Notes under the pieces: generated by a model
The model's database searches: none
Told to the model about the DNA's origin: nothing
Seen by the model: the letters and a program-made list of their open reading frames with translations, nothing else
From: Belnapia moabensis DSM 16746
GTDB lineage: Bacteria > Pseudomonadota > Alphaproteobacteria > Acetobacterales > Acetobacteraceae
Direction: 5' to 3'
NCBI RefSeq assembly: GCF_000745835.1
Contig: NZ_JQKB01000012.1
Location: 62,001-126,000 of the forward strand
Length of the DNA stretch: 64,000 nt
Part shown: piece by piece, positions 20,553 to 37,468 of the stretch
How the letters are laid out: each line of letters opens with the position of its first letter
How positions within the stretch are numbered: position 1 is the stretch's first letter
Made by a program: the position numbers and the translations under genes

Positions 20553-21434
20553 TCAGCTCGTAGGCGGGGCGCGGAAATCGGCCATGCGGGTGAAGTCGTC
20601 CGCATCGGCGATGCGGTCGCGCGCCTCCGCCCAGATGCGGGCGGCGGCGGCGTTGAGCGGCAGGGGGCAGCCGACCTCCTCGGCGAGCGCCATGGCGAGG
20701 CCGACATCTTTGCGCATCAGCCCGGCGGAGAAGCCGCTGTCGAAGCTGCCGGGCAGGACCCAGCGCGGGACCATTGCCTCGCTCACCGCGCTGCGGCCGG
20801 TCGCGGCATTGACGACGGGCAGGACGGCCTCGGCGGGGAGGCCGGCGGCTTCGGCCAGGCGCAGGGCCTCGCCGGTCGTCACCAGATGCGCGGCGACCAG
20901 CATGTTGTTGACGAGCTTGGCGATGTTGCCGGCGCCGGAGGGGCCGACATGCATCACCTTGCCCGACAGGGCGGCGAGGACGCCCTCGACCAGCGCGAGG
21001 TCCGCCGCCTCGCCGCCGATCATCATTGTGAGGGTGCCCGAGGCCGCACCGGAGGGGCCGCCGCTCACCGGCGCGTCGAGCAGGCCATGCCCGGCCTCGG
21101 CCAGCCGCGCGGCGAGGCGGCGGGAGGTGCCGGGGTCGGAGGTGGAGGTGTCGATCACCACCACCTTGCGGTCGCGCCGCTCCAGCAGCCCGCCGGGGGC
21201 GGTGACGACGGCCTCCACATCACGGGCATAGGGGAGCGAGAAAACCAGCGCATCGGCGGCGCCGAGCAGTTCGGCGAGGCCGGTCCGGAAGCGGATGCCG
21301 GCGGCCTCGGCGGCGTCCCGCCGGGCCGGGTCGATGTCGTAGCCTTCGACGGCGAAGCCGGCCCGGGCGAGGCTGGACGCCATTCCGAGGCCCATATTGC
21401 CGAGGCCGACCACGCCGAGGGTGCGGATGTCCAT
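20553..21434 (-). CDS. NAD(P)-dependent beta-hydroxyacid dehydrogenase (3-hydroxyisobutyrate dehydrogenase family)
   Basis: 293 residues. Rossmann motif VVGLGNMGLGMA (8-19). Substrate-binding DAPVSGGPSGAASGTL (~116-131), which is the full family consensus. Catalytic lysine region GNIAKLVNNMLV (Lys in AKLVNN). The family reduces or oxidises 3-hydroxyacids and semialdehydes. It is a distant homologue of the gene at 7017-7919, with a better conserved substrate motif. The start ATG at 21434 has AGGA 9 bp upstream; an ATG at 21443 is possible. Convergent with the HlyD gene, with 2 bp between stops. Confidence 0.9.
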   Translation of the reverse strand: MDIRTLGVVGLGNMGLGMASSLARAGFAVEGYDIDPARRDAAEAAGIRFRTGLAELLGAADALVFSLPYARDVEAVVTAPGGLLERRDRKVVVIDTSTSDPGTSRRLAARLAEAGHGLLDAPVSGGPSGAASGTLTMMIGGEAADLALVEGVLAALSGKVMHVGPSGAGNIAKLVNNMLVAAHLVTTGEALRLAEAAGLPAEAVLPVVNAATGRSAVSEAMVPRWVLPGSFDSGFSAGLMRKDVGLAMALAEEVGCPLPLNAAAARIWAEARDRIADADDFTRMADFRAPPTS

Positions 21435-21560
21435 GGCGGACATCCTATGGCCGGAAGGCGGCCGGCAGGCAAGCCAGGCAGCCGGGCGGCCGGACGATCG
21501 GGCCTGGAGCGGCGTCACCCATGCCATGCAAGGCGAAGCCGCTTCGGCTTGGTGTCTGTT

Positions 21561-22913
21561 CTAGCGGCAGGGTTGGTCGCGCACCCGCTCCGCCGGCAGC
21601 GTCACCCGCGCAGTGGTCCCCTCCCCCAGCACGCTCTCCAGCGTCAGGCTGCCGCCATGCGCCTCGGCCAGCCCCTTGGCGATCGGCAGGCCGAGGCCGA
21701 TGCCGCCGACCTTGCGCGTCTGGCCGCTGTCGAGCTGCTGGAAGGGCTCCAGCGCACGAGGGATGTCCTCCGGACGCATGCCGATGCCGTGGTCCCGCAC
21801 GCTGAAGACGACGCCAGCATCGGCTTCTCGCCCGACCGAAACCTCCACCACGCTGCCGGCCGGGGCAAATTTCACCGCGTTGCCGAGCAGGTTCTGCAGC
21901 ACCTGGCGGAAGCGCAGCGGATCGACGAAGACCGCGACCGGCTGCTCCGAGGGGAGAAGCTCGACCGCCACGTCCCGCGTCCGCGCCACGCCGCCGACCA
22001 GGCTCACCGTCTCCGCCAGCACCGAATCGGCCGGCAGCCATTGCGGGGAGAGCTGCGGCAGCGCCTGCTCCAGGCTGGAATAGTCGAGGATGCCGTCGAT
22101 CAGCGCCAGCAGGTGCCTGCCGGCATCCTGAATATGGCCGGAATAGCGCCCGACATCCCCTTGGCTCAGGTTGTAGCGCGAGCCGGGGAGCATCATTTCG
22201 GAGAAGCCGATGATGGCGGTCAGCGGCGTCCGCAGCTCATGCGTGAGGGTGGCGAGGAAGCGGGCGCGCGCCTCGCTCGCCCGCTCGGCCGCGGCCTTGG
22301 CGGCGCGCAATTCCGTCTCGCCCTGCTTGCGCAGCAGCACGTCGATATAGACCGAGAGCGCGCCCTCGATCAGCTCCTGGTCGCCCGGCTCGTAGGGCCG
22401 GCTGACATTGCTCTCGGACCGGTTGCCGAGGATGAGCGCATGGCCGGTGGAGCGGTCATGGGCCCAGAGGATGTAGGGCAGGCCGAGGATGCTGGTCAGC
22501 GCATAGGCCTGCGGCTCCAGCACGCTGCGGGAGGTGGTGAAGAAGAAGCCGGGCGGCATCGGCAGGCGGAGGGTCGGGACGGCGACCTGGCCGATGGCAT
22601 GGACGACGCGGAAGCAGCCATCGTCCGTTGGGTCCTGCTGCAGCAGGGCGGCGCCGTCGCAGAGCGCGTTCTCGACGATCACTTCGAGCAGCGAGGCGCC
22701 GATCTCCTCCGACGTCATGTGCATGTCGGCCAGGCGATAGGCCTCGCGGATGAGCTTCGCCACGGTGCGGCTGCGGCGTGCCTCGCGGAAGGCTTGGCTC
22801 TGCTCCTCCTGCAGGCGCAGCAGCCGGGCACCGAGGTCGTTGCACTCGCGCCGGTAGTAGGCGAGTTCGCGTTCGATCTGGCCGAGGGAGGCGAGCGGCG
22901 CGCTGGTTGCCAT
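21561..22913 (-). CDS. Soluble sensor histidine kinase with GAF-like input domain
   Basis: 450 residues with no membrane segment, so cytoplasmic. Residues ~1-60 are a coiled coil, ~60-190 a GAF-like sensory domain, followed by a HisKA dimerisation domain with phospho-acceptor His225 in LTHELRTPL and a C-terminal HATPase (N-box LLGNAVKFAP, G-boxes DHGIGMRPEDI and GGIGLGLPIAKGL). It starts at an ATG that overlaps the FIST gene stop (TGATG), so the FIST protein and the kinase are co-translated. That arrangement matches NosP-NahK-type pairs in which a FIST protein modulates the kinase. Confidence 0.93.
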   Translation of the reverse strand: MATSAPLASLGQIERELAYYRRECNDLGARLLRLQEEQSQAFREARRSRTVAKLIREAYRLADMHMTSEEIGASLLEVIVENALCDGAALLQQDPTDDGCFRVVHAIGQVAVPTLRLPMPPGFFFTTSRSVLEPQAYALTSILGLPYILWAHDRSTGHALILGNRSESNVSRPYEPGDQELIEGALSVYIDVLLRKQGETELRAAKAAAERASEARARFLATLTHELRTPLTAIIGFSEMMLPGSRYNLSQGDVGRYSGHIQDAGRHLLALIDGILDYSSLEQALPQLSPQWLPADSVLAETVSLVGGVARTRDVAVELLPSEQPVAVFVDPLRFRQVLQNLLGNAVKFAPAGSVVEVSVGREADAGVVFSVRDHGIGMRPEDIPRALEPFQQLDSGQTRKVGGIGLGLPIAKGLAEAHGGSLTLESVLGEGTTARVTLPAERVRDQPCR

Positions 22914-24154
22914 CAGGAGCGCCTCCGCAGCACGGCTAGGACGCCGGTCCAGTCGAGTGGTCGGCTCGGCTGGTTGGCGAAGGGCGCGATCTCCACGCCC
23001 GAATAGAAGCCGAGGAAGGGCAGGCTGGCATCGAGGCCATGGCGGATGACCTCCGCCTCCTCGATCGGCGCGCCGCTGCGCGCGCTGGCCCGTCCGGCGC
23101 AGTCGATGTAGAGGGCGAGCAGGCTGTCCGGCCCGACCAGGCGCCGGTTGGCATCGGCCACGCCGCGCTCGACGGAATCGAGCATCAGCCGGTTGTCGCG
23201 GCTCATGATCTGCACCCGGTCGCCCTCGGCAAAATCCGGCTCGAACAGTGTCACCGAGCCGGTCGCCGGGTTGGCGCGCAGGATGAGGCGGTTGACATAG
23301 GCATTCTCGTCATGCGGCGCGAAGGGGTCGCCCTGCTTCTGGCCGAGCGTCGCCACCAGGGATAGCTCCTGGCCGCGCGAGCCGCCGAGCGGCAGGCCGA
23401 GCATCGTCTCGATCACCTCGAGCGCCGGCCTGCCGTCGAGCTCATAGACCTCGGCGCCCTGGATCCGGGTGATCTCCATGAAGGAGCTGACCGGGCGGCA
23501 GCCGTGCATGATCACCGTCTCGGCCTCGACGGCGGGCGGGAAGACCAGGGCGATGGCGGCATGCTTGGCGATGCCGGCGCCGTCGAAGACCCAGCCGTCA
23601 GAGAGGTTCATGTCGGTCAGCAGCCCGCCGCCGAACAGGCAGACGGGCTTGTTCCGCGATCCGAGATGGAAGCCTTCGACGATGCGGCTGGCATGGTGCA
23701 GCCGGGGCGGGGAGCCGCTGGCGACGCTGTCGAACAGCAGGAGCACCGCGGCGCCGTCCGCCGCGTTGGCGGCGACGGCCTGGCCCAGTTCCTCGCCGGC
23801 GGCGCGCGCATCGGCCAGCAGGCTGCGGGTGATCACTGCCTGCGGGACCAGCGCCGGGTCCTCGAAGGCGATGAGTCCGATCTCGAAGCCGCCATAGCCG
23901 AAGCCGTCGCGGCCGATCGCCCCGGCGGCGGAACCGCCATAGACGGGCACCGGGCCGAATTCCTCCCGCAACGCCGCCTGCACCGCCTCGGGCCCATGCC
24001 GCCCGCCGCAAAAGGCCAGGATCAGCTGCGGGGTCACGGGACCCATGGCCGCGGCGCATTGCCGGATGGCGACATGCGGATCGACATGCTTGCCATAGCC
24101 GAGCCGGATGGTGCCGGCAGCCTGCCGCGGTGCCCCTGAATGGGCGTCAAACAT
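22913..24154 (-). CDS. FIST domain sensory protein (NosP-like candidate)
   Basis: 413 residues from the ATG at 24154. FIST N domain (~30-230): VYGGSAAGAIGRDGFGYGGFEIGLIAF is the typical core. FIST C domain (~240-385): ends LPFLGFYSGVEIAPF, a hallmark motif. FIST proteins are cytoplasmic ligand sensors; the NosP group binds haem and nitric oxide and is encoded with a histidine kinase, as here. A haem ligand cannot be assigned by eye. The 176 bp upstream contain a 12-bp palindrome CGTTCCGGAACG (24171-24182), 17 bp before the start codon. Confidence 0.9.
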   Translation of the reverse strand: MFDAHSGAPRQAAGTIRLGYGKHVDPHVAIRQCAAAMGPVTPQLILAFCGGRHGPEAVQAALREEFGPVPVYGGSAAGAIGRDGFGYGGFEIGLIAFEDPALVPQAVITRSLLADARAAGEELGQAVAANAADGAAVLLLFDSVASGSPPRLHHASRIVEGFHLGSRNKPVCLFGGGLLTDMNLSDGWVFDGAGIAKHAAIALVFPPAVEAETVIMHGCRPVSSFMEITRIQGAEVYELDGRPALEVIETMLGLPLGGSRGQELSLVATLGQKQGDPFAPHDENAYVNRLILRANPATGSVTLFEPDFAEGDRVQIMSRDNRLMLDSVERGVADANRRLVGPDSLLALYIDCAGRASARSGAPIEEAEVIRHGLDASLPFLGFYSGVEIAPFANQPSRPLDWTGVLAVLRRRS

Positions 24155-24330
24155 GGGATGACGCCTCGCTCGTTCCGGAACGGGTCTGCATCCTGCGATA
24201 CCCCTAAAGCGCGGCGGCAATACCGGTTGTGGTGTGAGGCGCCGGCGCCCCATAAGATTGCATTGGTCCTTAAGGCATACATCCCGGGTAGAGACAGATC
24301 ACAACTCTATCTGCCACGACCAACGTCTTC

Positions 24331-24732
24331 TCACGAGTTCGTCATCTCCGGTGCGGGGCGACGACGCTCTCGGCGACGGTCGATGGCTGCAAGGACGGCG
24401 GCGACCAGATCGTCTGGATTGAAAGGCTTCAGGAAAACCCGTTCTGTCGCCGGCGGGGGGCGCTTGATCAGCCGTTCGGGGCTCCCGGTCACGTAGAAGA
24501 TAGCAAGACCAGGTAAACGGTGCCGCGCTTCCGCGGCGAGCGTCAACCCGTCATCGCCCGGGCCGAGATTGATGTCGGTGACCATGACCGCGACCCGCTG
24601 CGCCGCGTCGGTCAGGATTCCCAGGGCCGCCAGCGCATTCTCCGCCTCCAGCAGGGTGCAGCCCGCGGCTTCGAGGAAATCCGCCAACGTCGAACGTACG
24701 ATCGGATCATCCTCGACCAGGAGCACGGTCAT
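24331..24732 (-). CDS. Single-domain response regulator
   Basis: 133 residues comprising only a receiver domain. Acidic pocket E7-D8-D9, phospho-acceptor Asp53 (VTDINLG), signalling Thr in YVTGS, and Lys in FLKPF. There is no output domain, so it acts by protein contact or as a phosphate shuttle, probably for one of the neighbouring kinases. The start at 24732 gives MTVLLVEDD; an upstream in-frame ATG lacks family similarity. Confidence 0.92.
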   Translation of the reverse strand: MTVLLVEDDPIVRSTLADFLEAAGCTLLEAENALAALGILTDAAQRVAVMVTDINLGPGDDGLTLAAEARHRLPGLAIFYVTGSPERLIKRPPPATERVFLKPFNPDDLVAAVLAAIDRRRERRRPAPEMTNS

Positions 24733-24997
24733 GAGACGTCTTTCAGTGGTTGCGACGGCCTTCTCTCGGATCAGAACGGATGACGGGCCAGCAGGTCCAG
24801 CAGCAAGCCAGCCTCGCACAGAGTGTTTACCCGTTTAGGTTGTGGGCCAATGAAGGATACAACTCAAAATTTAGCATTTGTCGCGGATTGGTTGAACACA
24901 TCGGCTCGACAGCAACACTGCTGCCCTGTCTTACAGGGGAGGTCTGTCGATCCGGGCCACGGGAGCGCAAGGTGGGTCGGCAATTACCTTGCCTGCC
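24733..24997. other. AT-rich intergenic stretch with a hairpin between two response regulator genes
   Basis: 265 bp with clearly lower GC than its surroundings at about 24820-24900 (GTTTACCCGTTTAGG, CAAAATTTAGCATTTG), likely the promoter of the downstream minus-strand regulator gene. A hairpin CCCTGT-CTT-ACAGGG lies at 24924-24938, near the end of the other regulator gene's transcript. No gene is supported here; short open frames in it lack ribosome sites and family similarity. Confidence 0.5.
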
Positions 24998-25483
24998 TCA
25001 GGGCAACAGCGCCTGACGCAGCGCCACATCCAAGGCCTCCAACTCGAAGGGCTTTCGCAGCGTAGGCCAGACGGTGCTGTGGTGCGTCGTGTAGCCGGTG
25101 ATGAAGATCACCTTCAGCGAAGGCCGCAGCACCAGCGCCCGCTCGACCAGCGCCGGGCCATCGAGACCCGGCATCCGCACATCGGTGACCAGCACCTCGA
25201 TCTCGGGATGCCGCTCGATCTCGCGCAAGGCCGGCTCGCCATCCGCCGCCTCGTAGACGGTGAGGCCGAGCGAGGCGCAATGATCGACCAGGATTTCGAG
25301 GATCATCGGCTCATCGTCGACGACCAGGACGCGGCGGCCGGCGAGCGAGACCTCGCCGGGCAGCCGGGAGGCGTAGACGCCCGGCGCCTCGCTCCGCCCG
25401 CCATGCGGCAGGTCGCCCTCGCCCGTCGCTAGGGCGGCGCTGGAGGTGAACCTGCGGAGCGCTCTCGAAGCAGTCATATTCAT
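24998..25483 (-). CDS. Single-domain response regulator with N-terminal extension
   Basis: 161 residues. A receiver domain spans ~50-160: acidic pocket D56-D57-E58, phospho-acceptor Asp101 (VTDVRMPGLDG), Thr in FITGYT, Lys in LRKPF. The first ~50 residues are low-complexity and may be partly untranslated. It lies 43 bp downstream of the MHYT sensor kinase on the same strand and is the likely partner of that kinase, of the type that pairs with HDFNN-class kinases. Confidence 0.9.
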   Translation of the reverse strand: MNMTASRALRRFTSSAALATGEGDLPHGGRSEAPGVYASRLPGEVSLAGRRVLVVDDEPMILEILVDHCASLGLTVYEAADGEPALREIERHPEIEVLVTDVRMPGLDGPALVERALVLRPSLKVIFITGYTTHHSTVWPTLRKPFELEALDVALRQALLP

Positions 25484-25526
25484 ACTCTAGGAACAGACAA
25501 CGTCAGCGACCAGGGCAGCATGAGCC

Positions 25527-27395
25527 TCATGCCACGCACTCGTCGGTCGGCACGGCCGCGGCGGCGGCATGCGTCGCGCGCGGCAGCCAGAGCGTTACCT
25601 GCGTCCCCTCGCCGGGGCGGCTGGCGAGCTGGGCCGTCCCGCCCGATTGCCGGGCGAAGCCATAGACCTGGGACAGGCCGAGGCCCGAGCCCCGCCCGAC
25701 CGGCTTGGTCGTGAAGAAGGGCTCGAAGGCGCGGGCCAGCACCTCCTCGCTCATCCCGGCCCCGCTATCGGTCAGGGTGAGGGCGACGTAATCCTGCGGC
25801 ACCAGCCCGCCGCGGAGCCGCTCCGGCAGCTCGGACAGCGGGACATTGGCGGCGGCGATGGCGAGCCGCCCACCCTCCGGCATGGCGTCGCGCGCATTGA
25901 TGCCGATGTTCAGCAGCGCCACCCCCAGCTCCGACTGGTCGGCGAGCACCGGCCAGAGCCCCGGCTCCAGCTGCGTCTCGATGCGGATGCGCCCGCCGAG
26001 GGTGCGCGCCAGCATGCTCTCGGCGATATCGGGCAGCAGCTCGGCGAGGGCCACCGGCTGCGGCTTCAGCGGCTGCTCGCGGGCGAAGGCGAGCAGCCGA
26101 CCGGTGATGTCGGCGCCACGCCGCACTGCCCCGGCGGCGCTGCGCGCCAGGCGCAGCAGCGCCTCGTCCGTGGTCCGGCGCATGAGGAGCTGGAGGTTGC
26201 CCGAGACGACCATCAGCAGGTTGTTGAAGTCATGCGCGACGCCGCCGGTGAGCTGGCCCATCGCCTCCAGCCGCTGCGCCCGGCGGAGCATCTGCTCGGC
26301 CTGCACCCGGGCGGTCACGTCCTGCAGGGTGGCGATGGCGAGCCCATCCCGCCCATCCCTGTCGGGCATCGGGACGAGGCTCAGCTCGAGATGCAGGGTG
26401 GTGCCGTCCGGGCGGCGATGGGTCACGGGCTCGCGCTCCAACGCCTCGCCGTGGCGAAGGGCGGCGGCGATCCGGTCGCCCGCCCAGTCCAACGCCTCGG
26501 GCATCGCCGCGTCCAGCCGGCGGTCAAGGATGCGCTCCGCCTCCGGATTGGCGAGGAGCACCCGGCCCGAGCCGGCCTCGGCGAGGAGGATGCCGACGGG
26601 CATGCGCTGCAACACGCTCCGCAGGCGCTCCTCGCTGTGGCGCAGTGCCTCGGCCTCACGCAGTGCCATCGCCTCGATACGGCGGTCAACCATGGCGGCG
26701 ACGAGCGCCAGGGTGAGCAGCAGCAGGGTGCAGGTTGCGATGCCGATGGCGAGCGCCTCGGCCGGAATCTCGGCCGGCCGGGCGGGCAGGCCGGGAACCG
26801 GCAGGAAGCTGACGGCCGCCATGCCGGTATAGTGCATCCCGGCGATCGCCAGGCCGAGGGCGAGGGCGCCCAGGGCCCGGGCCGGCGCGGACCGCTCGTC
26901 GAGGGCCAGCACCAGGGCAAGCGCCGAGGCGCCGATCGCTACCGCGGCGGAGGCCGTGACCAGCAGCGGGTCATAGGCCGGCATCGCCGCCAGGCGCATC
27001 GCCTCCATGCCGACGTAGTGCATGAGGCAGATGCCGAGGCCCATGGCGAGGGCGGCGGCGGCGATGCGCCCGCGGCGCGGCACCGCGCTCCGCCCGGCCG
27101 CCAGCGCAAAGCCGAGCCCGGTCGCGCCGATCGCCAGCAGCAGCGAGAGGATGGTCAGCCGCATCTCGTAGCGGATCGGGGTGCCGAGGTCGTAGGCCAG
27201 CATGGCGACGAAATGCATCGACCAGATGGAGCCGCCGGTCGCCGTCGCCGCCCCGGCCAGCCACCAGAGGCGGATGGCGTCCGCATTCGCCCGCACGCGA
27301 TGGAAGAGATCCAGCGCGGTCCAGGACCCGAGCACGGCGATGAGGACCGAGAGCGCCACGAGGACCGGTTCATGCGCGCTGTGCAGGTGATGCAT
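25527..27395 (-). CDS. MHYT-domain membrane sensor histidine kinase (MHYT-PAS-HisKA-HATPase)
   Basis: 622 residues. The first ~250 are an MHYT sensor: seven predicted membrane helices with three motif copies (SMHFVAM, LMHYVGM, GMHYTGM) whose His/Met are proposed to bind copper and sense O2, CO or NO. A PAS domain follows (~260-370). The kinase has His388 in the VAHDFNNLL box and an HATPase with [18 protein letters not shown] and GSGLGLSQVYGF. There is no receiver domain; the response regulator gene 43 bp downstream probably supplies it. First gene of the signalling cluster. Confidence 0.94.
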   Translation of the reverse strand: MHHLHSAHEPVLVALSVLIAVLGSWTALDLFHRVRANADAIRLWWLAGAATATGGSIWSMHFVAMLAYDLGTPIRYEMRLTILSLLLAIGATGLGFALAAGRSAVPRRGRIAAAALAMGLGICLMHYVGMEAMRLAAMPAYDPLLVTASAAVAIGASALALVLALDERSAPARALGALALGLAIAGMHYTGMAAVSFLPVPGLPARPAEIPAEALAIGIATCTLLLLTLALVAAMVDRRIEAMALREAEALRHSEERLRSVLQRMPVGILLAEAGSGRVLLANPEAERILDRRLDAAMPEALDWAGDRIAAALRHGEALEREPVTHRRPDGTTLHLELSLVPMPDRDGRDGLAIATLQDVTARVQAEQMLRRAQRLEAMGQLTGGVAHDFNNLLMVVSGNLQLLMRRTTDEALLRLARSAAGAVRRGADITGRLLAFAREQPLKPQPVALAELLPDIAESMLARTLGGRIRIETQLEPGLWPVLADQSELGVALLNIGINARDAMPEGGRLAIAAANVPLSELPERLRGGLVPQDYVALTLTDSGAGMSEEVLARAFEPFFTTKPVGRGSGLGLSQVYGFARQSGGTAQLASRPGEGTQVTLWLPRATHAAAAAVPTDECVA

Positions 27396-33832: not shown

Positions 33833-34111
33833 CGAGGGCTGGTCCTTCGGCGGGCCGGTTCGCGAAGAGAGAGTGAAGGGGGAAGCCCGGCCTGTTCCCC
33901 GCGCATATGGGCGTGGATGGGGCCGATTGCTGCCCATCGGCGCAAATGGACATAGCGGGGAATGGTCTGTAGTCACGCCCGCCCGGGCCGTCGACGACGC
34001 CTCGTCCTGCGGCGGGACGGGGGACACAGCGTCGTGCGCAATGCTGTTCTGTCGCTTCCGGTATAGGGCGCCGGTTTATTGTTGGCCGCCGCACGGGAGA
34101 GATTTGCATCT

Positions 34112-37100
34112 ATGCCAGTCGCACGCGACCCCTTTGCCGGCCAGGGCGAGATGGCGGAGCGCATGCGGCACACCGACTGGGCCGCCACCCCGGTCGGCCC
34201 GGTCGAGCGCTGGCCGCAGGGCCTCCGCGCCACCGTGCGGACCCTGCTCGGGTCGCGCTACCCCATGGTGCTGCTCTGGGGCGAGGCCGACCTGATCCAG
34301 ATCTACAACGACGCCTATACCGGCCTCATCGGCGCCAAGCACCCCTACGCCCTCGGCCGCTCCATCAAGGAGACCCAGGCGGAATCCTGGGACATCATCG
34401 GACCGATGATCCACGAGGTGATGGCGACGGGCACGCCCAATTGGGTCCCAGCCCAGTGCATGGCCGTCAACCGCGCGGGCTATGACGAGGAGGCCTATTT
34501 CTCCCTGTCCTATAGCGCGGTCGAGGATGACGAGGGCCGCATCCACGGCATGCTCTGCGTCTGCAGCGAGGTGACGGCGCAGATCCTCGTCGAGCGGCGG
34601 CTGAAGCTCCAACGCGACATCGCCGCCCGGGTGGGCGAGGCGCAGGACGCCGGGGCACTCTGCCGCGAGATCGGCGAGGCCATCGCCGGCTGTCCCTCCG
34701 ACATTCCCTTCGCCCTGCTCTACCTGCGCGAGGGGGAAGGGTTCCGCCTCGCGGCCGCGGTGGGGCTGCCGGCGGGCCATGCCGGGGCGGCGGAAGCGGC
34801 CTGGCCGCTCGGCCGCGCTGTGGCGGGCGAGGCCGTCCTCATCGAGGATGCCGCCGCCCGTATCGGCCCGCTGTCTGGCGGGCCCTTCGGCCAGCCGGTG
34901 CAGGCCGCCCTCGCCCTGCCGCTGGCCGGAAGCGGCGGCGCGGAAGCGCTTGGCGTGCTGGTCTGCGGGATCAACCCGGCCCGCGCGCTGGATGAGGGCT
35001 ATCGCGGCTTCTACGACCTGCTCGCCGGCCAAGTCGCTGCCGCCATCCGCAACGCGCAGGCCTATGAGGACGAGCGCCGCCGCGCCCAGGCGCTGGCCGA
35101 GCTGGACCGGGCGAAGACGCGCTTCTTCGCCAATGTCTCGCATGAGTTCCGCACGCCGCTGACCCTGCTGCTCGGGCCGGTGGAGGATCTGCTCGCCCGG
35201 CCGGGCCTCGGGCCGGAGCTGCGGGAGGAGCTGGCCATGGTCCGGCGCAACGCGCTGCGGCTGCTGCGGCTGGTGAACTCCCTGCTCGACTTCGCCCGCG
35301 TCGAGGCCGGCCGGGCCGAGGCCTGCTTCGTGCCGGTGGAGCTCGGCCAGGCCACCGCGGACCTCGCCGGGGCCTTCCGCTCCGCCATCGAGCGGGCCGG
35401 GCTGCGGCTCGAGGTGGATTGCCCGCCGCTCGCCGAGCCGGCCCATGTCGACCCCGACCTCTGGGAGAAGATCGTCCTCAACCTGCTCTCCAACGCCCTC
35501 AAGCACACCTTCGAGGGACGGATTGCGGTGCGCCTGCGCCAGGAGGGCGCGGCGATCCGGCTCACCGTGGCGGATACCGGCATCGGCATCCCGGCCGACC
35601 AGCGCGACCGCGTTTTCGAGCGCTTCCATCGGGTGGAGGGCGCCCGCAGCCGCACGCATGAGGGCTCCGGCATCGGCCTCTCCCTGGTGCGGGAGCTGGT
35701 CGGGTTGCATGGCGGACAGGTCTCGGTCGAGAGCGAGCCCGGGCGCGGCGCGACCTTCATCGTCGAGATCCCGGCCGGCCATGCGCATCTGCCGCCGGAG
35801 CGGATCGGCGCCGCGCCGCGGCTGTCCTCCACCGCCCTCGGCGCCGGGCCCTTCGTCGAGGAGGCCATGCGCTGGTTCGCCGATGCGCCGGCGCCCGACC
35901 CCAAGGTGGTGCCGATGCCGCCTCGGCGGGAGGCGCCGGCCCGTCGCCCCCGCCTGGTGCTGGCCGACGACAATGCGGATATGCGCGCCTATGTCGCCCG
36001 GCTGCTCGCGCCCGACTACGAGGTGGCGGCCGTGCCGGATGGCGCGGCGGCGCTCGCCGCCCTGCGTGCCGCCCCGGCCGAGCTGCTGCTAACTGACGTG
36101 ATGATGCCGGTGATGGACGGCCTCGCCCTGCTGCGGGCGGTGCGGGCGGACCCGGCGCTGCGCACCCTGCCGGTGGTCGTGCTCTCCGCCCGCGCGGGCG
36201 ACGAGGCGAGCAGCGAGGGGCTGGAGGCCGGCGCCGACGACTACCTCGCCAAGCCCTTCGCCGCCCGCGAGCTGCGCGCCCGCATCCGCACCCATCTGGA
36301 ACTCGCCCGTCTGCGGCGCGAGGCGGAGGAGCAGGCGCACCAAGCGCGCAAGATGGAAGCCGTGGGCCAGCTCACCGGCGGCGTGGCGCATGACTTCAAC
36401 AACCTGCTGGCGGCCATTCTCGGCTCGCTCGACCTGGCGGAGCGGCGCGTGGACGACGAGCGGGCGCTGCGGCTGCTGCGCAACGCCATGCAGGCCGCCC
36501 GCCGCGGCGCCGGGCTGACCGCGCAGCTCCTCGCCTTCGCCCGGCGGCAGCGGCTGGAGGCGCGGCCGACCGACCTGAACCGGGTGCTCTCCGGCATGGG
36601 CGACCTGCTGCACCGCACGCTGGGCGGCCGCATCGGCGTTTCGCTCCGCCTCGCCAAGGAGCTGTGGCCCGCCACGGCGGATGCCGGGCAGCTGGAACTC
36701 GCCGTGCTCAACCTCGCCATCAACGCCCGCGACGCCATGCCGGAGGGCGGCGAGCTGTCGATCGAGACGCGCAACCTGCCGGGCGCCCAGGGCCGCGGTG
36801 ACCGGGTCGCGGTGGAGGTGCGGGATACCGGCACGGGCATGCCGCCCGAAGTGCTGGCGCGGGTCTTCGAGCCCTTCTTCACCACCAAGGGCATCGGCAA
36901 GGGCACCGGGCTCGGCCTCGCCCAGGTGCATGGGACGATCGGCCAGCTCGGCGGCGAGGTCGCGGTCGAGAGCCGGGTCGGCGAGGGCACGCTGGTGCGG
37001 CTGGTGCTGCCGCGCGCGCAGGGCTGCCCGTCGCTGGAGCCGGAGCCCGGCCCGGGCGAGGAGCAGGCCGAGGCCGGCGGCCTGACGGTGCTGCTGGTGG

Positions 37101-37464
37101 ATGACGACCCGCATGTGCGCTCATCCGTCGTCGCCATGCTCCGGGAGCTCGGCCATCGCGTCGTCGATGCCGAGAGCGGCCGCGAGGCGCTGCGCCTGCT
37201 GCGCGGCGAGGCGGGCTTCGACCTGCTGCTGAGCGACCATGCCATGCCGGGCATGGCGGGCGGCGAGCTGACGCTGCGGGCGCGAGCCCTGCATCCGGGC
37301 CTGCGCGTGCTGATCATGACCGGCTATGCAGGGGGCGATTCCCAGCCGCCCCGCGACGGCGTGCTGCTGCGCAAGCCCTTCGACCTGGCCGAGCTGCGCG
37401 CCGCCCTGCGCCTCGTTTCGGAAAACCGGGCGCCGCGCGGCAAGGCCCGGCCGCAGCAGGCGGG

Positions 37465-37468
<4 letters not shown>
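34112..37468 (+). CDS. Double hybrid sensor histidine kinase (PAS-GAF-HK-REC-HK-REC)
   Basis: 1118 residues, soluble. Order: PAS (~10-150, starting [17 protein letters not shown]), GAF (~165-310), HisKA with His344 (VSHEFRTPL) and HATPase, receiver with Asp662 ([11 protein letters not shown]), a second kinase core with His760 (VAHDFNNLL) and HATPase (FEPFFTTKG), then a C-terminal receiver with Asp1042 ([11 protein letters not shown]). Two full kinase modules in one chain suggest an internal phosphorelay. ATG 34112 is chosen over a TTG at 34079 lacking a ribosome site. The stop shares CTAG with the convergent chvI stop. Confidence 0.95.

Follow-up and report, generated by a model that had tools for sequence, protein, structure and literature searches.

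We analyzed a 64,000-nucleotide stretch of Belnapia moabensis DSM 16746 (hereafter the window; NCBI RefSeq assembly GCF_000745835.1, contig NZ_JQKB01000012.1, positions 62,001 to 126,000), in which a FIST domain protein and a soluble histidine kinase (HK2) are encoded side by side, close to an MHYT domain histidine kinase (MHYT-HK) and two single-domain response regulators (RR1 and RR2). With a probability of roughly 0.45, i.e., slightly below even odds, FIST, HK2, and a membrane enzyme of the FA_desaturase superfamily form a functional unit that would signal via a receiver of the DivK/PleD class, in place of the five-gene cluster proposed by the first-pass annotation. The desaturase gene, which lies outside the range originally noted, is the most constant neighbor of FIST-HK2. 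New here is a FIST-kinase pair that is not of the NosP type and has a new genomic partner, the desaturase, beside a separable MHYT module.

Conservation of the FIST-HK2 pair and its desaturase neighbor

The neighborhoods of FIST-HK2 were compared among 26 genome loci (L numbers), which are draft contigs with the plasmid or chromosome status undecided for most, and gene content was surveyed in 150 genomes of the family Acetobacteraceae (G numbers), 17 with the window-type FIST and 133 without; the weak matches in G080, G099, and G132 (20–26 bits), two of which are NosP-like loci, were excluded from these counts. HK2 is located directly beside FIST in all 26 loci, including two from other alphaproteobacterial families. 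FIST domains are widespread across the phylum (121 of 249 sampled genomes), and a class-wide search of 384 genomes besides the window's own recovered the window-type FIST beyond the family in two genomes. In the genome of the window, this FIST gene is the sole FIST match.

The desaturase gene is near FIST-HK2 in 24 of the 26 loci, and both misses are contigs ending within 100 bp of HK2. It lies within 0.5 kb of the pair in 19 loci, at 0.8 kb in L005, and at 6–8 kb in four Belnapia-type loci including the window (two of these four desaturases are visible only partly, at the edge of the stretch). Because the gene occurs in three differing placements (downstream convergent in 16 loci, upstream on the same strand in four, and upstream on the opposite strand in four), its proximity has survived rearrangement. 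Clustering of the neighboring open reading frames in 25 loci identified only FIST, HK2, and the desaturase as present in each of the 16 groups; any further cluster shared by at least four groups overlaps the coordinates of these genes and was read as their shadow. Pairwise distances agree among 21 loci (r = 0.79–0.90). Across the family, the desaturase was found in 17 of 17 genomes with the window-type FIST versus 1 of 133 without (Fisher p = 1.7e-21, uncorrected for kinship, genome size, or physical linkage), and the sole exception, G074, has neither FIST nor HK2 on its 8.5-kb desaturase contig. The desaturase is absent from 40 other FIST loci, 30 of which carry only about 1.5 kb of flank.

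The histidine boxes of the enzyme (FHHC.HGT, EHM.HH, and HD.HH) are conserved in at least 95% of 21 aligned rows. Its NCBIfam matches are weak (36.9 of 500 bits for DesA and 25.5 of 380 bits for arginine hydroxylase), and a sequence search of solved structures with the desaturase gave no match. A second desaturase-type copy with 71% identity is located away from FIST in a Belnapia genome (G121:C1:2348383-2349543, L210).

The same linkage could reflect membrane homeostasis without cyclic-di-GMP, with FIST-HK2 sensing the membrane or fatty acid state and adjusting the desaturase gene or enzyme, i.e., a DesK-like purpose served by other parts. Besides the constancy of the linkage, this explanation draws on the desaturase being retained near FIST in those loci with a decayed kinase (see below) and a visible flank (L006, L008, L052, and L057), which suggests control without phosphotransfer. 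We regard it as unlikely, as the clustering of 25 loci revealed no DNA-binding regulator among the constant neighbors, a simple hydropathy scan predicted no membrane segment in FIST or HK2, and the NCBIfam matches of the desaturase are too weak to assign it a substrate.

Divergence of the FIST protein from NosP

The FIST protein of the window had been taken for a NosP-type sensor of nitric oxide (NO), which the comparison with NosP contradicts: it scored 40.1 bits against the NCBIfam NosP model and did not reach the cut-off of 450 bits. NosP-like proteins (402–478 bits) were identified in 10 of the 150 family genomes, four of them over the cut-off, and two genomes (G024 and G112) carry both a NosP-like protein and the window-type FIST. 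Two motifs are replaced in an alignment of 24 window-type, 10 NosP-like, and 29 general FIST proteins (the general set came from 30 loci, with one excluded for its short length; 7 of the remaining 29 look NosP-like). All 10 NosP-like and all 29 general FIST proteins have a Cys in the GC-T motif, and this residue is Gly in 24 of 24 window-type proteins. Likewise, the His-NQT motif near the C-terminus, which reads MHxNQT or MHxNHT in NosP-like proteins and retains Asn and Gln in 28 of the 29 general FIST proteins, has become LDWT in all 24.

The window-type FIST has its own invariant residues (H153, H198, H217, and C219), and these His and Cys residues could bind a metal. In addition, its FIST_N-FIST_C architecture and the co-encoded soluble kinase without a recognized sensor domain resemble NosP-NosK of Burkholderia pseudomallei, where NosK, paired with NosP, has no recognized sensor domain according to the available part of the report (PMC12570481). 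A FIST that binds heme, senses NO, and controls HK2 could be built from such parts, but it is highly improbable in view of the low NosP score, the replacement of the Cys and His-NQT motifs, the additional NosP-like protein of G024 and G112, and an HK2 that is not NahK-like.

A sequence search of solved structures with FIST found no match. Foldseek with the FIST model (mean predicted local distance difference test score 76) matched FBXO22 (E = 5e-10) and gave weaker matches to chorismatases, neither pointing to a ligand; this is consistent with the available part of the report on FBXO22, in which the FIST domain is described as resembling chorismatases and, per the authors, as having no obvious ligand pocket (PMC11185555). 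The window-type FIST is putatively a divergent sensor of small molecules outside the NosP type.

The partner kinase and its decay in some lineages

In the window, the catalytic motifs of HK2 are intact (H225 and the N, G1, and G2 boxes). The HK2 model comprises a predicted N-terminal helix and alpha/beta region (about residues 10–170), followed by the phosphoacceptor (DHp) and ATPase domains. A structural search with this model returned DivL as the top match by Z score, level with ordinary kinases, and the N-terminal fold remains a prediction because the structural matches cover almost only residues 205–446. The phosphoacceptor domain of the window HK2 scored 63.7 bits with DivJ, 61.7 bits with TorS, and 19.5 bits with NahK, which speaks against the NahK-like partner kinase of the first-pass annotation. 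DivJ or PdhS is the best DHp match in four of the six loci tested, i.e., DivJ in the window and L009, and PdhS in L140 (104 bits) and L141 (93 bits). The full-length scores are below the equivalog cut-offs (140.7 of 2000 bits for PdhS and 137.5 of 1000 bits for DivJ), and the catalytic core of HK2 leans toward a DivJ/PdhS-like class.

The kinase core is decayed in six of the 26 loci (L006, L007, L008, L010, L052, and L057), in which the usual H-box and G-box motifs are lost. In these loci, FIST is retained and the N-terminus of HK2 has an identity of 57–67%, compared to 23–34% for the core. The tree of intact versus decayed cores requires as few as two changes (bootstrap 1–3) and does not demonstrate repeated loss. 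Two of 12 plasmid records with a FIST match were examined, both from Roseomonas; FIST is followed in each by a partner of 342–345 amino acids with an HK2-like N-terminus (L159 8161–9189 and L160 8188–9225), and no kinase domain was found in these partners. The N-terminus is thus kept where the core is decayed or the kinase domain is absent, which suggests that this region is the part of HK2 that FIST needs and points to a possible FIST binding site. Eleven plasmid records of Roseomonas contain a match, and in L160 a DotA/TraY family gene lies within 7 kb.

Potential link to DivK, PleD, and cyclic-di-GMP

Two-component genes are located upstream of the pair in 15 of the 26 loci (five Belnapia-type, five with a hybrid kinase, three PleD-like, and two DivK-like). 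A PleD-like REC-REC-GGDEF gene is directly upstream in L009, L050, and L056, and the upstream single receivers of L140 and L141 group with DivK; when the L141 receiver was searched in its own genome, the next-best match was a receiver plus a longer frame, read as divK-pleD. These neighbors in five of the 26 loci are in line with DivJ, PleC, and PdhS kinases acting on DivK and PleD, as described in the available part of the literature (PMC7003649).

In the genome of the window, a PleD-type REC-REC-GGDEF protein is encoded on contig C55, unlinked to FIST. Of the sampled genomes, all 14 whose HK2 is intact have a PleD-type protein (in two as a FIST-linked copy only), compared to 63 of the 133 without the window-type FIST (Fisher p = 8e-5, uncorrected for kinship and genome size) and one of three with a decayed HK2 core. 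The absence of a match in G108 and G017 (L051/L006 and L052), which both belong to genus g18 and have a decayed core, was treated as one lineage and not counted independently.

Gene layout and the separable MHYT module

All five signaling genes were confirmed on the minus strand at the positions first noted (Table 1), as was the translational coupling of FIST and HK2, in which TGATG contains the overlapping stop codon of FIST and start codon of HK2. The start of FIST was set to 24154 based on an ATG conserved in relatives, not the first start codon of the open frame, and that of RR1 to 24732, an ATG kept in L002, L003, and L005, not the open-frame start. The resulting intergenic gaps are 43 bp (MHYT-HK/RR2), 265 bp (RR2/RR1), and 176 bp (RR1/FIST), so the five genes are not obviously a single operon. 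Both FIST and RR1 have a conserved non-coding block upstream (that of RR1 at about 24820–24850, also conserved among Belnapia-type loci), which suggests separate promoters. The FIST-upstream block has a single genomic site with up to three mismatches and was rejected as a regulon motif.

Table 1. Features of the FIST-HK2 locus and its surroundings, in window coordinates.
Feature	Position	Strand	Domains, scores, and remarks
HK2, soluble histidine kinase, 450 aa	21561–22913	-	HisKA and HATPase_c
FIST_N-FIST_C protein, 413 aa, divergent, non-NosP	22913–24154	-	PF08495 90.9 bits and PF10442 74.6 bits, both over cut-offs
Conserved block upstream of FIST, possible promoter/operator	24255–24279	-	Kept in the window and L002–L005
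RR1, single receiver, 133 aa	24331–24732	-	PF00072; open frame begins at 24819
RR2, single receiver, 161 aa	24998–25483	-	PF00072; partner of the MHYT kinase
MHYT-HK, MHYT-PAS histidine kinase, 622 aa	25527–27395	-	PF03707 147 bits in three stretches, PAS, HisKA, HATPase_c
FA_desaturase-superfamily membrane enzyme, 400 aa	31372–32574	+	PF00487 58 bits, cut-off 29.7

The five-gene arrangement was found only in Belnapia-type loci, i.e., the window and L002–L005 (n = 5), the nearest named relatives being Belnapia species and a genome labeled Craurococcus. All five genes are kept in L002–L005 (FIST identity 86–91%); they adjoin one another in the window and L002–L004, and a desaturase gene lies between RR2 and RR1 in L005. 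From the first-pass annotation, the coupling of FIST to a soluble kinase and the intact MHYT kinase stand, whereas the NosP type, the NahK-like partner, the shared receivers, and the five-gene unit are not supported. The outcomes that the first-pass annotation had named as refuting it, a FIST clustering away from NosP or five genes that are not neighbors in related genomes, were largely observed.

Other genes surround the cluster. A dehydrogenase gene downstream of HK2 (20553–21527) was rejected as a partner: its closeness to FIST is confined to Belnapia-type loci, and two further loci have distant homologues. The LysR gene adjoining the cluster is reduced to short scattered pieces in Belnapia arida (L004 4380–4812), as if decayed, and had no match in L002 or L005. 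A hybrid kinase of 1129 amino acids (34079–37468, plus strand) is encoded 1.5 kb past the desaturase; it contains a GAF domain and two stretches each of the HisKA, HATPase, and receiver types.

The MHYT-HK has MHF, MHY, and MHY motifs at residues 60, 125, and 187 fused to a kinase with intact catalytic motifs (AHDFNN, NIGINARD, DSGAGM, and GRGSGLGL), and its core is most like PRK13557 (264.7 bits) and CckA (236.9 bits), both below the full-length cut-offs. The MHYT domain of CoxC senses carbon monoxide with copper, according to the available part of the report (PMC11347149), and by analogy the MHYT-HK may well be a gas sensor. RR1 and RR2 have all of the acidic cluster, phospho-Asp, Thr, and Lys motifs, and they group with hybrid-kinase receivers, apart from DivK and both PleD receivers (support 99/98, with several long branches). 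The MHYT-HK gene is also followed by RR2 in two genomes outside the set with the window-type FIST, G036 of the same genus (72% identity) and G088 (65%). This and the hybrid-kinase type of both receivers run counter to their being shared by the two kinases. The five genes look like two separable modules, FIST-HK2 and MHYT-HK with RR2, side by side in one genus, and RR1 probably belongs with the latter. The MHYT-HK is tied to FIST by position in one genus alone.

In L008 and four sister loci (L043–L046), a PAS-kinase-REC hybrid is located at the place of the MHYT-HK, and together with the five Belnapia-type loci a CckA-like kinase and receiver are thus upstream of the pair in 10 of the 26 loci. 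This recurrence, the degenerate HK2 beside the CckA-like kinase in L008, and DivL as the top structural match of HK2, albeit tied with ordinary kinases, would fit an integrated network of five genes, in which HK2 and MHYT-HK share RR1 and RR2, or HK2 acts on the CckA-like MHYT-HK as DivL does on CckA. Such a network is distinctly unlikely, because MHYT-HK and RR2 occur in G036 and G088 where the window-type FIST was not found, RR1 and RR2 are not DivK/PleD-like, and 11 of the 26 loci have no upstream two-component gene that could be found.

Proposed signaling unit

In the proposed unit of FIST, HK2, and desaturase, FIST would bind a small molecule that is probably tied to the desaturase, i.e., its product, its substrate, or the resulting membrane state. 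FIST would bind HK2 via the N-terminal region and set the kinase/phosphatase state of the DivJ/PdhS-like core, and HK2 would exchange phosphate with a DivK/PleD-class receiver. The likely target of HK2 in the genome of the window would be the unlinked PleD-type protein on contig C55, with cyclic-di-GMP as the output. Alongside in Belnapia lies what would be a second, CckA-like module of MHYT-HK, RR2, and probably RR1.

Several observations weigh against this proposal. The window has its desaturase gene 7.2 kb from FIST and on the opposite strand, and the co-occurrence tests ignore kinship and genome size. An upstream two-component gene was not found in 11 of the 26 loci, among which the L010 contig has only 0.7 kb upstream. 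TorS is the best DHp match in L050 and L056, DivJ leads TorS by only 2 bits in the window, and the whole HK2 kinase scores higher with TorS, PnpS, and PhoR than with the PdhS and DivJ models, so that the DivJ/PdhS family call is a lean and not proof. Six of the 26 HK2 kinases look dead, and phosphotransfer therefore cannot be the whole story. The plasmid loci L159 and L160 have neither a kinase domain nor a desaturase nearby. Finally, the FIST domain of FBXO22, the structural match of the FIST model, has no obvious ligand pocket according to its authors (PMC11185555).

A more elaborate version, which we consider very unlikely, is a synthase-receptor circuit in which the desaturase makes a lipid-derived or other small signal, FIST is its receptor, and HK2 feeds DivK/PleD, coupling the signal to cyclic-di-GMP and the cell cycle. 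In the core-decayed lineages, the direct target of FIST and the HK2 N-terminus would then be another protein, perhaps the desaturase.

In the available parts of the literature found, a signal has been assigned to FIST only for NosP (NO) and CdpA (heme), and other FIST proteins are liable to be labeled as NO sensors by default. Members of the window-type clade pair FIST with a kinase, do not pass the NosP tests, and have a concrete enzyme partner, which makes the question of the FIST signal testable. No paper in the open-access collection that was searched combined "FIST domain" and "desaturase", other wording and subscription papers being outside the scope of the search, and among the matches listed for FIST with DivK/PleD or Acetobacteraceae names, none concerned a window-type system.

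Comparison with known systems

DesK-DesR is a two-component system whose kinase is genetically tied to a desaturase gene, and HK2 is likewise tied to a desaturase-family gene. Unlike DesK-DesR, the window-type system has no predicted membrane-embedded sensor, FIST would take the role of the sensor, and the constant neighbors found include no DNA-binding regulator. The MHYT-HK resembles CckA/PRK13557 kinases in its core and MHYT sensors such as CoxC in its three MHYT repeats, and it differs from the CckA/PRK13557 type in that its receiver is a separate protein, RR2.

HK2 leans toward the DivJ/PleC/PdhS kinases in its DHp domain, and DivK- or PleD-like neighbors accompany it in five of the 26 loci. 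On the other hand, it is soluble, coupled to FIST, and equipped with its own N-terminal region, and its similarity to these kinases in the window is 2 bits above TorS. With NosP-NosK-NosR and NosP-NahK-NarR, as far as the available parts of the reports describe them, the window-type system shares a FIST gene beside a kinase gene, HK2 and NosK both being without a recognized sensor domain, and a cyclic-di-GMP enzyme gene is linked in some window-type relatives, as in NosP systems. It departs from them in a FIST far under the NosP cut-off with two motifs replaced, a kinase core that is not NahK-like, and a constant desaturase neighbor.

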